Assembly: GCA_001800825.1 (NCBI GenBank)
Contig: MGWD01000051.1
Span: forward strand, 9,910-48,677
From: Euryarchaeota archaeon RBG_19FT_COMBO_69_17
GTDB taxonomy: Archaea > Thermoplasmatota > Thermoplasmata > RBG-16-68-12
Reading direction: 5' to 3'
Length of the DNA stretch: 38,768 nucleotides
Made by a program: the position numbers and the translations under genes. Shown in pieces: positions 27,063 through 31,114 of this stretch. The stretch's first letter is position 1; each line of letters starts with the position of its first letter. Below the pieces are notes generated by a model. The model did no database searches. It was not told where the DNA came from and saw only the letters and a program-made list of their open reading frames with translations.

Positions 27063-27788
27063 ATGCTCAAGGGATTCCGCCGAGCGTTGAGTGGAATCCC
27101 TCGACCCAGGTCCGGGGGCCGCCGGGAGGCCTTGCGGGCCGTCGCCCGCGGGAACCAGCTCCTCGACCGGGGGGACCTCGAGGGCGCGCGGAAGGCCTTC
27201 GAGGCCGCCGTCGCGACGGACCCGGACTACGCGCCCGCGTGGAACAACCTCGGGGTCGTCGTCGATCGGGGAGGCCGCCCCCTCGACGCCCTGCCCCACT
27301 TCAACCACGCGATCAAGCTCAGCCCTTCCTTCGTCGACGCCTGGTGCAACAAGGGCGTGGCCCTCCTCCACCTGGACCGCCCCTCGAGGGCCGAGGAATG
27401 CTTCCAGTCCGCCCTCCAGGTCGACCCGGGCTCGGAGGTCGCCCTCCTCAACCTCGGGGTCCTCCGGGCCCGCCGGGGGGACCTCCGGGGCGCGACGGAC
27501 GCGTTCGCCCTCGGCCTGCGAGACAATCCCGACTACGCCGCCCTTTGGGTGAACCTCGGGACCGTGTTCCTCGAGTCGAAGGAGGTCGGGCGGGCCCTCC
27601 AGTGCGTGAACGCGGCCCTCGGCCGCCGTCCCGACTACCCTGAGGCGTGGCTCCAGAAGGGCCGCATCCTCGTCGCGTCGGGGAAGCCGGACGACGCGCG
27701 GTTCTGCTTCGAGCGGGCCCTCCAGATGCGTCCGACCCTCGCCGGCGCGCGGGAGGCCCTCGCCGCCCTCCGGAGGTCCGGGGGATGA
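27063..27788 (+). CDS. TPR-repeat protein
   Basis: About six TPR units (e.g. APAWNNLGVVVDRGGRPLDALPHFNHAIKLSP, VDAWCNKGVALLHLDRPSRAEECFQSALQVDP). Confidence 0.92.
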   Translation: MLKGFRRALSGIPRPRSGGRREALRAVARGNQLLDRGDLEGARKAFEAAVATDPDYAPAWNNLGVVVDRGGRPLDALPHFNHAIKLSPSFVDAWCNKGVALLHLDRPSRAEECFQSALQVDPGSEVALLNLGVLRARRGDLRGATDAFALGLRDNPDYAALWVNLGTVFLESKEVGRALQCVNAALGRRPDYPEAWLQKGRILVASGKPDDARFCFERALQMRPTLAGAREALAALRRSGG

Positions 27789-30700
27789 CCCGGAAGGCCT
27801 CCGCCCTCCCTCCCTGCCCCCGGTGCGGGGGCCAGCTCCTCCCCATCAGCCTCTGCGATGTGTGCGGGTCCGCCGCGGTCCTCCGAGGCCTGGAGGAGAT
27901 CGACCGGGTCGTCGAGTGCCCCGAATGCCACGCGACGAGTCCCGCCCAGGTCCTCTGCGACGGGTGCCAGACGCGGAGCCTGCTCGCGGACCTGCCGGAG
28001 GCGGACTCCACGCCCCCGAAGTGCCCCTCTTGCGCGACGTTCCTCGGCCCCGACGACGCCGCGTGCCCGACCTGCGGGCGCTCCTTCCGGGCGGCCCCTG
28101 CCATCCCCCGTCGGAAGGAGAGGAGGTCCCGCCGGATCCGGGGCGACTACGACGAGCGGCAGCTGCGGGACATCCTGTCGATCCCGGGGGTCAACGAGGC
28201 CCTCGCCCGCGTCCTCCTGCGTCAGGGCTACAACGCGATCTCGAAATTGAAGGCCGCCCCGGAACCGGAGCTCGCCTCGATCCCGGAGATCGGCCCCGCG
28301 GGAGCCCGGACCCTCCTGCGCGCCCTTGCGACGGTCCCGTACGTCGTGCCCGCGAGGCGCGGAGACGCGTTCGCGGAGGAGGAGGCGGAATGCCCCCTGT
28401 GCGCTTGCCCGACGTCCCTGTTCGCCTCATCGTGCCTCGATTGCGGCGCCTTCTTCGACGAGGAGGAGACGGACCTGGAGACCCGGGAGAGGCTCGCCGG
28501 GGAGGCGCCCGCGAGCCTCCTGTCGTTCTACGACCTCCGTCTCGAGGATGACCCGGAGGACGCGGACCTGTGGTACGCCCGGGGCCTCCTCCTCGAGTCC
28601 CTCGGCCAGGACGCGGGCGCCCTGGAGTCCCTCGAGCGGGCGAAGGCCCTGAGCCCCGGGACGCGGAAGGTCACCGTCGCGATCACGCGGCTCTTGTCGA
28701 AGACCCCGCCCGCCTCCGGCGGCTCGGACCGCCTGCGTTCCATGCTTCACACGATGGTCGAGGATGTGGCCTTCGAGCAGGAGATGACCGCGGTCCAACG
28801 GTCCCTCGGGCTCGAGGGGCCCGCGTGCCCCTTCTGCGACGAGCCCGTCCCGCCCGACGCGAGGACGTGTCCCGCGTGCTCGATGACCCTCCCGTCCCGG
28901 ACGCTGCCGGAGGCGGCCCGCCCGAAGGTCGAGGAGGAACAGGACCTCCTCGCCTCCCTCCTCGAGGACCTCCGGAGGGAGGCCCGCGCGCCGGAGCCCG
29001 TGGCCGAGCTCGAACCCTCGACGCCCCCGACCCTCGACGGGATGGTCCAGGCGTTCGAGGAATCCCTCTCCCCGGAGGAGCTCGAGGCGGCCCAACGCGC
29101 GACCCTCGACTGGCTCATGGACGAGCTCGAGGAGTCGATCGGCCCGGAGGAGGCGCCATCCCCGGCGCCCCCGCCTCACCCCTCGTCGAGCCCGGCCCCC
29201 GCCTCGGGCCTGGGAGCGCGGTTCCACATCCCCACCTCCCGCGGCTTCCTGTCCCGGTCCCGGGTCCAGCGCCGGGGTTTCGTGAACGGGGCTGGCTCCG
29301 TGAACGGCCGCGCCCGGGTCAACGGGCTCGTGAACGGGCAGGGGACAGGCCTCGTGAACGGCCGGGGCCACGTGAACGGCTTCGTGAACGGCCGCGGCTA
29401 CGTGAACGGCGCCTCCGTGACCCTCGTCCGGCTCCCGTCCCCGCCCCGGCGGACGACGTTCGCGCTCGTCGCCCTCGGGCTCGTCATGGGGGGCCTCATC
29501 GGCGCCCTCCTCCTCGTGCCGTCCTCCGTGCCCTCGGCCCCGATCTCGATCGACGGCTCGTTCGAGGACTGGACGTCCGTGCCGTCCCTCGACGCGGCGA
29601 CGCCGTCGACGAACCCCCGGGTCGGGATCGCGCGGTACGCCCTCCTCTCCTACCGGACGTCCCTCTTCCTCTTCGCCTCGACCCTCGCCCCGACGTTCGA
29701 GGACCCCGACGGCTTCGACGGGGTGTTCTTCCTCCTCGATGCGGACGACGACCCGTGGACGGGTTACTCGTTCGCCGGGGTCGGAGCGGACTTCGTCGTC
29801 GAGGTCTACGGGAACGGGACGTCGCGGAGCGCGCACCTCTTCGAGTTCCCCGCGGACGCGGAGTTGAACTGGAGCCGGCGGGCCCCGGTGACGTCCCTCC
29901 GGGCCGCCTCGGGCCCGGGGGGCGTGGAGGTCCTCCTCCCCCTCGCGGACCTGGAGCCCGCGGACCCCGCGCTCCTCCGGGCCGTCGTCTACGCGGACGA
30001 CTTCGAGGGCGCCTCGAGCCGGGGGCTCGGCCTCTTGTCGACATCCGCGGGGGCGATCCTCCTCGAGTCGCGCCCCCTCGTCACGACCGTGGGCCCCGGC
30101 CCCACGGAGATCCTCGAGATCCGGGTCCGGGGCCTCGGTCTGACCCCCTCCGACGCGTGGGCCGTCTCCTCCTTCCGTCTGCGGGGGACCGCGGGCCTTA
30201 CCTATGATCTGTCGGCGGAATCCGTGAGCATCACCCGGGACCAGCCCGAGGTGGCCGTGCGGGCCACCGTGCAGGTCCCGGGATTTTTCCCCGGCGACAC
30301 GGTCAGCCTCGAGGTCCTCGGCGCGAACGCGGACCGCCCCGTCTCCGTGACGGGCGACGCGGGCCGAGCGTACGTGATCGGCCCGCCCCCGACGAAGCGG
30401 ATCGACGGGCTCTTCGCGGACTGGGCCGGGACCTCGGTCCCGGACGCGGACCCGGAGGCCGTCAACAACTCGAACGTCGACATCGTCCGGTCGGGCGCGG
30501 CGACGGATGGGACCCTCGCGTACTTCCAGGTCGAGGTCGCGGGCGTCCTCTTGGAGGGCCGGGTCCCCCAGCGCGTGGCCCGCCCCGTGGGCCCCGGCGG
30601 GCCCGGCGGCCCGCCCGGCCCGTCGACCCCCCCGCCCCGGCGCACGGGGGAGGACCTCCTCCGGATGTACGTTGACATGAACGGGTCGGACCTCCAGGGC

Positions 30701-31114
30701 GCGGACATCGAGGGGATCCTCGCGGACGTCCTCGTGGAGGTGCGCGGTCAGGCGGGCGCGGTGACGTCGACCTCCCTGTATACGTGGTCCTCGGGCTGGC
30801 GGAAGGTCCCCGGGGCGCCCATCGTCATCGCGAAGAACTCGACCGCGATCGAGGGCTCGATCCTCATCGCGCCCGGGTGGAACGGGACGCGAGTCGTCTT
30901 CGAGGCGACGGACTGGTCCGGGATCCGGGACGTGACGGAGCCCATCGCCGTCGTCTACGAGCCCCCGACGCCCCTCGTCCCCGTGGTCCCGATCACGATC
31001 GCCGCCCCGGAGTTCGAGCTCGCGGCGGCCCCCCTCCTCGGGACCGCGGCCCTCGTGCTCCTCCTCCGCCGCCGGCGGGCCCGCGGCTCTTCGGGTCCCC
31101 GAGAAGGTACTTGA
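27785..31114 (+). CDS. Large multidomain protein: five zinc ribbons, HhH-like and TPR-like segments, VNG repeat, TM helix, two IDG-DW ectodomains, PEF-CTERM-like tail
   Basis: ATG 27785 overlaps the TPR gene stop (ATGA). Zinc ribbons: CPRCGGQLLPISLCDVCG, CPECHATSPAQVLCDGCQ, CPSCATFLGPDDAACPTCG, CPLCACPTSLFASSCLDCG, CPFCDEPVPPDARTCPACS. TM: TTFALVALGLVMGGLIGALLLV. C-term: APEFELAAAPLLGTAALVLLLRRRRARG. Confidence 0.9.
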   Translation: MTRKASALPPCPRCGGQLLPISLCDVCGSAAVLRGLEEIDRVVECPECHATSPAQVLCDGCQTRSLLADLPEADSTPPKCPSCATFLGPDDAACPTCGRSFRAAPAIPRRKERRSRRIRGDYDERQLRDILSIPGVNEALARVLLRQGYNAISKLKAAPEPELASIPEIGPAGARTLLRALATVPYVVPARRGDAFAEEEAECPLCACPTSLFASSCLDCGAFFDEEETDLETRERLAGEAPASLLSFYDLRLEDDPEDADLWYARGLLLESLGQDAGALESLERAKALSPGTRKVTVAITRLLSKTPPASGGSDRLRSMLHTMVEDVAFEQEMTAVQRSLGLEGPACPFCDEPVPPDARTCPACSMTLPSRTLPEAARPKVEEEQDLLASLLEDLRREARAPEPVAELEPSTPPTLDGMVQAFEESLSPEELEAAQRATLDWLMDELEESIGPEEAPSPAPPPHPSSSPAPASGLGARFHIPTSRGFLSRSRVQRRGFVNGAGSVNGRARVNGLVNGQGTGLVNGRGHVNGFVNGRGYVNGASVTLVRLPSPPRRTTFALVALGLVMGGLIGALLLVPSSVPSAPISIDGSFEDWTSVPSLDAATPSTNPRVGIARYALLSYRTSLFLFASTLAPTFEDPDGFDGVFFLLDADDDPWTGYSFAGVGADFVVEVYGNGTSRSAHLFEFPADAELNWSRRAPVTSLRAASGPGGVEVLLPLADLEPADPALLRAVVYADDFEGASSRGLGLLSTSAGAILLESRPLVTTVGPGPTEILEIRVRGLGLTPSDAWAVSSFRLRGTAGLTYDLSAESVSITRDQPEVAVRATVQVPGFFPGDTVSLEVLGANADRPVSVTGDAGRAYVIGPPPTKRIDGLFADWAGTSVPDADPEAVNNSNVDIVRSGAATDGTLAYFQVEVAGVLLEGRVPQRVARPVGPGGPGGPPGPSTPPPRRTGEDLLRMYVDMNGSDLQGADIEGILADVLVEVRGQAGAVTSTSLYTWSSGWRKVPGAPIVIAKNSTAIEGSILIAPGWNGTRVVFEATDWSGIRDVTEPIAVVYEPPTPLVPVVPITIAAPEFELAAAPLLGTAALVLLLRRRRARGSSGPREGT
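29279..29410 (+). repeat. In-frame degenerate tandem repeat encoding eight (X)VNG units
   Basis: FVNGAGSVNGRARVNGLVNGQGTGLVNGRGHVNGFVNGRGYVNG; the DNA core GTGAACGG/GTCAACGG recurs eight times. Confidence 0.95.

Follow-up and report, generated by a model that had tools for sequence, protein, structure and literature searches.

An overlapping gene pair of a soil archaeon encodes a TPR protein and a trans-membrane surface protein from an unnamed family with an archaeosortase-type tail

The DNA analysed here (the window) is a stretch of 38,768 nucleotides from the soil archaeon Euryarchaeota archaeon RBG_19FT_COMBO_69_17 (Thermoplasmatota; Thermoplasmata; assembly GCA_001800825.1, contig MGWD01000051.1, positions 9,910 to 48,677 of the forward strand), the genome of which comprises 2.2 Mb in 66 contigs and is coded G000 below. 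Two adjoining genes of the window are considered, one encoding a tetratricopeptide repeat (TPR) protein and the other a large trans-membrane surface protein, referred to as the big protein, whose paralogous family probably connects the surface of the cell with its internal machinery. The features of the pair are as follows (window coordinates; aa, amino acids or residues).

27063..27788, + strand, TPR protein of 241 aa with at least five TPRs (Pfam TPR_2, E=1e-34)
27785..31114, + strand, big trans-membrane surface protein of 1109 aa
27815..27967, + strand, zinc ribbons 1 and 2 (aa 11-27 and 45-61, together aa 11-61), cysteine positions kept in orthologs
28022..28075, + strand, zinc ribbon 3 (aa 80-97), not universal among orthologs
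28166..28330, + strand, helix-hairpin-helix (HhH) of the HHH_5 type (aa 128-182), with helices in the model
28391..28444, + strand, zinc ribbon 4 (aa 203-220)
28475..28804, + strand, TPR-like helical segment (aa 231-340)
28826..28879, + strand, zinc ribbon 5 (aa 348-365), Pfam DZR at its cut-off
29282..29410, + strand, juxtamembrane NG-repeat tract of eight VNG units (aa 500-542)
29462..29518, + strand, first trans-membrane helix (TM1; aa 560-578), N-in signal anchor by hydropathy and flanking charge
29537..30040, + strand, CBM9-like beta-sandwich 1 (IDGSFEDW), by profile match to 1i82 and ectodomain model
30041..30382, + strand, Ig-like beta-sandwich between the CBM9-like modules, by secondary structure in the model
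30383..30979, + strand, CBM9-like beta-sandwich 2 (IDGLFADW)
31007..31111, + strand, archaeosortase-type tail, consisting of a PEF motif, a hydrophobic helix (aa 1079-1094) and RRRR

The architecture of the big protein is well supported. A sequence-only reading of this DNA had listed five CxxC...CxxC zinc ribbons, an HhH-like segment, a TPR-like segment, acidic linkers, an eight-unit VNG repeat and two IDGxFxDW modules, and all of these were recovered. The cysteines of ribbons 2 and 4 are invariant among orthologs, the HhH exceeds the Pfam gathering cut-off for HHH_5 (E=8.3e-9, 36.2 bits versus a cut-off of 27), the TPR-like segment falls below the Pfam cut-off (TPR_9, E=6e-6) but is modelled as about six helices, and the IDGxFxDW modules lie at aa 589 and 873. 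The paralogous family, the archaeosortase-type tail and the CBM9-like nature of the ectodomain had gone unseen; of the "one TM helix" of that reading, TM1 stands, while a second hydrophobic helix near the C terminus (aa 1075-1098), between the PEF motif and RRRR, had been overlooked. Searches with the model of the cytosolic half gave matches limited to designed and generic TPRs, and a PHROGs search matched the zinc-ribbon fragments alone.

Among 60 relatives compared, a counterpart of the big protein was clear throughout the order at the same place, and its zinc-ribbon/HhH/TPR half was essentially single-copy per genome. The order-wide gene order is PyrG-Prx-DUF1611 <> [TPR]-BIG-YchF-PolB; one flank holds PSH, aIF2-beta, PyrG, a peroxiredoxin, the 25110 gene and DUF1611, and the other holds YchF, PolB and L15e, with some flanking genes absent from the big-protein locus in some families. 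The big gene is a syntenic single-copy ortholog across the order and the housekeeping member of its family. A thin phylum-wide draw contained the N-terminal module in only 4 of 295 genomes; the profile of all orthologs being too diverged for a scan of the collection, a narrower ortholog profile was used instead, which matched 12 soil "Euryarchaeota archaeon EA_*" metagenome-assembled genomes (MAGs) and one Thermoplasmata MAG. Zinc-ribbon and HhH modules are rarely combined with CBM9-like modules, as might be expected if two unrelated genes had been fused by assembly or gene prediction. Such an artefact was rejected and has a practically negligible probability, as the same uninterrupted frame occurs in more than 12 independent genomes across several families; moreover, more than 20 syntenic orthologs show this anatomy, which is therefore not due to chance. 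Membership of the organism in the Ca. Angelarchaeales, which bear a copper membrane monooxygenase (CuMMO; PMC9038741), was considered, and PF02461 had no match in seven genomes including G000. A gene adjoining the orthologous locus in G035 (L048:11978-14791) encodes an exported 938-aa protein with a CGNGGCHG motif.

The stop codon of the TPR gene and the ATG of the big gene share the sequence ATGA (27785-27788), as first read, and close spacing is conserved. At the TPR-positive loci checked, the TPR gene lies directly upstream of the big gene and either overlaps it or is separated from it by at most 7 bp; the junctions read ATGA, GTGA or TGATG, with an 8-nt overlap in G048 and a 7-bp gap in family f3. 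The gene is present in families f1 (G000, G007 and genus g2), f2, f3 and f4 and in G048 of family f18. Ten sister species of the window's genus lack it; in these, the big gene comes straight after the divergent DUF1611 gene in every case where the contig extends far enough. In a tree of the big protein, some long branches of which were flagged, all ten TPR-less orthologs fall on one side of one branch (100/99 support), and one loss therefore suffices. No TPR ortholog was found elsewhere in four genomes of the TPR-less clade, where background TPR proteins scored at most 96 bits, compared with 175-304 bits for true orthologs. Since the gene was lost once, with the big gene kept and no ortholog elsewhere in those four genomes, the TPR protein is an ancestral, translationally coupled but non-essential partner, and a putative physical adaptor; the conserved adjacency that the sequence-only reading set as a check holds at the TPR-positive loci examined but not in this sister clade. 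Zinc ribbon 3 is absent from most same-genus orthologs; precisely the ten TPR-less orthologs and L049 lack it, which hints that this ribbon may be a TPR docking site. This is no more than a lead, since the co-loss happened a single time and the TPR gene is retained in L049 despite the missing ribbon.

Beyond this locus, the combination of NG tract, TM helix, two IDG modules and PEF tail recurs many times per genome, with two copies in the window genome, 16-19 match segments in others and 34-35 first-look candidates in G106 and G110, and roughly one in four of the 201 genomes sampled from the class contain the family. The cytosolic part differs between members: it consists of HhH, zinc ribbon and TPR in L104, L109 and L118, of a KaiC ATPase with TPR and zinc ribbon in L108 and L111, of SAP and zinc ribbon in L122, of zinc ribbons only in L121, of TPRs with a weak zinc ribbon in L110, and of the NG tract alone in L107, L112, L113 and L117. 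The second member in the window genome (L104:6430-11049, contig C25; about 1540 aa) combines an HhH, three zinc ribbons, TPRs, an NG tract and two IDG modules with lamin-tail and DUF11 domains and has an IPEL tail, and a member in G110 (L130:1167-4931, contig C9) has a cytosolic N-terminal part of about 480 aa for which Pfam gave no match. Separate TPR genes precede some forms that have no cytosolic domain (L106, L112), and a small zinc-ribbon gene precedes another (L117). Being fused to the family in some paralogs and encoded next to it in others, TPR and zinc-ribbon proteins can be suggested, without proof, to act with it. Such split versions of the fused architecture were noted at L106:10259-12496, L112:5217-7853 and L117:8942-9406; the preceding genes include a long TPR gene and a gene for a 108-aa TM protein, the end of which overlaps the start of the family gene.

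This exchange of cytosolic outputs on a constant ectodomain resembles the evolution of receptors, and the occurrence of KaiC, DUF7504 and MEDS-like modules among the paralogs, together with the KaiC gene and the helix-turn-helix (HTH) regulator gene that adjoin L109, could be taken to mean that the big protein is a single-pass receptor, whose CBM9-like/Ig-like ectodomain senses a ligand, whose cytosolic modules relay the signal and whose effector is the TPR protein. Yet no relay of the kinase, response-regulator or HAMP-like kind was found in support of such a role; several paralogs have the NG tract alone inside the cell, a PEF tail would fix the ectodomain at both ends, and most genes around the locus are informational housekeeping genes. 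A receptor function is considered the less likely reading, though a serious rival of the linker described below, as is the tether considered next. The composition of the cytosolic half would also fit a nucleoid- or RNA-to-membrane tether, in which HhH and zinc ribbons bind DNA or RNA at the membrane and the ectodomain is a mere anchor: besides the HHH_5 match, the HhH region is weakly similar to those of RadA, UvrC and Hef, zinc ribbons are common in nucleic-acid binding, and one paralog has a SAP domain. Both HhH motifs and zinc ribbons bind proteins too, though, and the first HhH hairpin is degraded in several orthologs (the L055 group and the same-genus LLKVLGLD forms). A tether of this kind seems more doubtful still than a receptor, and DNA or RNA binding by the cytosolic half is putative.

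Charge and domain content point to a cytosolic N-terminal half. Across 57 family members, the net charge flanking TM1 averages +4.3 N-terminally and -2.8 C-terminally, the N side exceeding the C side in 56 of the 57; together with the ATPase, SAP, zinc-ribbon and HhH modules N-terminal to TM1 (KaiC or SAP in several paralogs), this charge bias is the reason for taking that half as cytosolic, and it agrees with the membrane-spanning platform proposed earlier. About 560 residues of cytosolic-type sequence precede TM1, and no cleavable N-terminal signal peptide was recognised.

In the same 57 members, the number of units in the NG tract ranges from 3 to 28 (median nine), with 12-30 residues between the last of them and TM1. 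Adjacent units that are identical as protein are also identical as DNA in only 32 of 296 cases, indicating that the tract is kept at the protein level by selection on its residues. A 53-residue NG query found matches in 8 of 8 family-positive and 0 of 4 family-negative genomes, and the identifiable open reading frames (ORFs) with matches in the genomes searched were, as far as checked, family members; the ORFs of L128 and L129 are cut by contig ends and have the KaiC- or zinc-ribbon-type N-termini seen in other members. The tract is retained in forms that have nothing else inside the cell, and a role beyond that of a linker is therefore probable. A bolder and rather improbable proposal is that it is a functional module through which paralogs co-assemble laterally, the membrane-adjacent low-complexity tracts clustering HhH/SAP, KaiC, TPR and zinc-ribbon modules into a membrane-bound platform that would be tied outside to a lipid-anchored coat.

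On the outer side, the ectodomain (aa 585-1109) was modelled confidently, with a predicted local distance difference test (pLDDT) score of 88.5 and a predicted template modelling (pTM) score of 0.84. A Foldseek search of the whole model against the Protein Data Bank (PDB) was set aside, having returned generic multi-domain beta-sandwich matches with query TM-scores of at most 0.20; since these were uninformative, single-domain profiles were used. The first module (profile A3) matched two xylanase CBM9 structures, that of xylanase A (1i82, E=3.3e-5) and 7nwn (E=0.005), and hhalign identified the two IDG modules as homologous (99.9% probability, E=1e-31). The gathering score of Pfam CBM9_1 was not reached, a match being found in only 1 of 34 members (E=0.09). 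In the aligned region, the positions corresponding to W71, D60 and E77, the aromatic and acidic sugar-binding residues of CBM9-2, carry other residues in the family profile. The modules therefore seem related to CBM9 but need not bind sugar in the same way, and a conserved DxDxxxxTGY motif suggests a metal or structural loop.

The last 35 residues of the big protein contain PEF, then ELAAAPLLGTAALVLLL, then RRRR, its tail as a whole taking the form APEF-helix-RRRR. A short motif followed by a hydrophobic helix and a basic cluster is the tripartite layout of archaeosortase substrates (PMC7157517), and PE[FLY] followed by a helix and basic (R/K) residues closes each of the 43 intact family C-termini (39 of 44 tails by a script pattern and four more by eye, the remaining end being an assembly gap). 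The best sites for the PEF-CTERM model TIGR03024 genome-wide in sortase-positive genomes are mostly family C-termini. The window genome encodes two archaeosortases above the TIGR04178 cut-off, for which ArtC, the enzyme that recognises PEF-CTERM (PMC5244752), is the nearest named subfamily. One of the two (L127:1120-2019, contig C16) seems to have a C-terminal cysteine-rich zinc-ribbon or RING-like tail (CGVCGEAL...CPRCGAPW). In the 201 class genomes, the ectodomain family and an archaeosortase occur together in 42, the ectodomain family alone in 8, an archaeosortase alone in 6 and neither in 145, and by genus the corresponding counts are 25, 1, 2 and 48; the nominal Fisher p values (1e-28 and 1e-16) are inflated by relatedness, but the pattern is near-complete. 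The eight ectodomain-positive genomes without a TIGR04178 match, along with the sub-threshold TIGR03024 scores, would be accounted for if the protein were a structural coat protein with an ordinary stop-transfer anchor at its C terminus and no archaeosortase processing. This is improbable, given that, for seven of the eight, the enzyme is present in another member of the genus, that co-occurrence by genus is near-complete, and that PE[FLY] precedes the helix in every intact tail of otherwise divergent proteins.

The explanation we favour, to which about even weight is given, is that the big protein spans the membrane to link the surface coat with a cytosolic TPR/nucleic-acid module. In its favour are the order-wide synteny, the gene overlap or near-abutment, the N-in charge bias, the PE[FLY] tails, the two archaeosortases and their co-occurrence with the family, the CBM9-like modules, and the TPR and zinc-ribbon modules that are fused in some paralogs and adjacent in others. 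The protein would be inserted N-in via TM1, which would start export of the ectodomain, and an ArtC-like archaeosortase would then cut the C-terminal tail and replace its helix by a lipid, so that the ectodomain would be held at both ends on the outer face of the membrane. There it might bind the cell's own coat, either a glycan or neighbouring family members, while the cytosolic module and the TPR protein could hold a nucleic-acid or protein complex at the membrane. Several points weigh against this linker. No tail reaches the TIGR03024 cut-off of 23 bits, even in sortase-positive genomes, both enzymes score below the ArtC model's own cut-off, and the co-occurrence counts are not phylogenetically independent. 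The sugar-site residues of CBM9 do not appear to be kept, which makes glycan binding doubtful, and the sister clade lost the TPR gene without losing the big gene. Finally, the archaeosortase substrates known to us are Sec-exported surface proteins, none of them anchored N-terminally with a large cytosolic domain.

Comparison with described systems shows both likeness and difference. With archaeosortase C/PEF-CTERM (TIGR03762/TIGR03024) the family shares the PEF motif, hydrophobic helix, basic cluster and exosortase/archaeosortase genes in the same genomes, but here tail and enzymes are below curated cut-offs, and an N-terminal anchor and large cytosolic domain take the place of a cleavable signal peptide. 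The CBM9-2 of T. maritima xylanase 10A (PDB 1i82) is alike in its IDG...W motif and in profile similarity over the N-terminal half, whereas here the sugar-site positions are not conserved and two modules surround an Ig-like domain on a membrane protein. Firmicu-CTERM (TIGR04145) matches weakly over the first 43 positions, including IDG..DW (22.6 bits versus a cut-off of 50), the rest being unmatched. The HhH is of the RadA/UvrC type, but is joined to zinc ribbons, TPR and a membrane anchor rather than to a nuclease or recombinase, and archaeal cytosolic zinc-ribbon/TPR/KaiC proteins have the same module types, which are here fused via the NG-repeat tract to a membrane helix and ectodomain. In agreement with the sequence-only reading, which knew of no named family with the full architecture, neither Pfam nor NCBIfam has a model for it or for the ectodomain of the big protein, and searches of the open-access literature found no description of NG repeats or of the CBM9/KaiC/archaeosortase combination. 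The parts are of known kinds; what appears to be new is their combination, together with the NG tract and the presence of an archaeosortase-type tail on a protein whose cytosolic domain is large.

The NG-repeat tract is conserved as an amino-acid sequence, and the genomes searched showed it only in the big-protein family; should NG clustering be true, the result would be a scaffold spanning the archaeal envelope, comparable in logic but not in descent to FG-repeat or LINC-type linkers. The archaeosortases of these uncultured archaea may have this unnamed family, with many copies in some genomes, as one of their main clients. To our knowledge, members of the family would be the first case of a large cytosolic domain on an archaeosortase-type surface protein, and would physically connect coat and cytoplasm.

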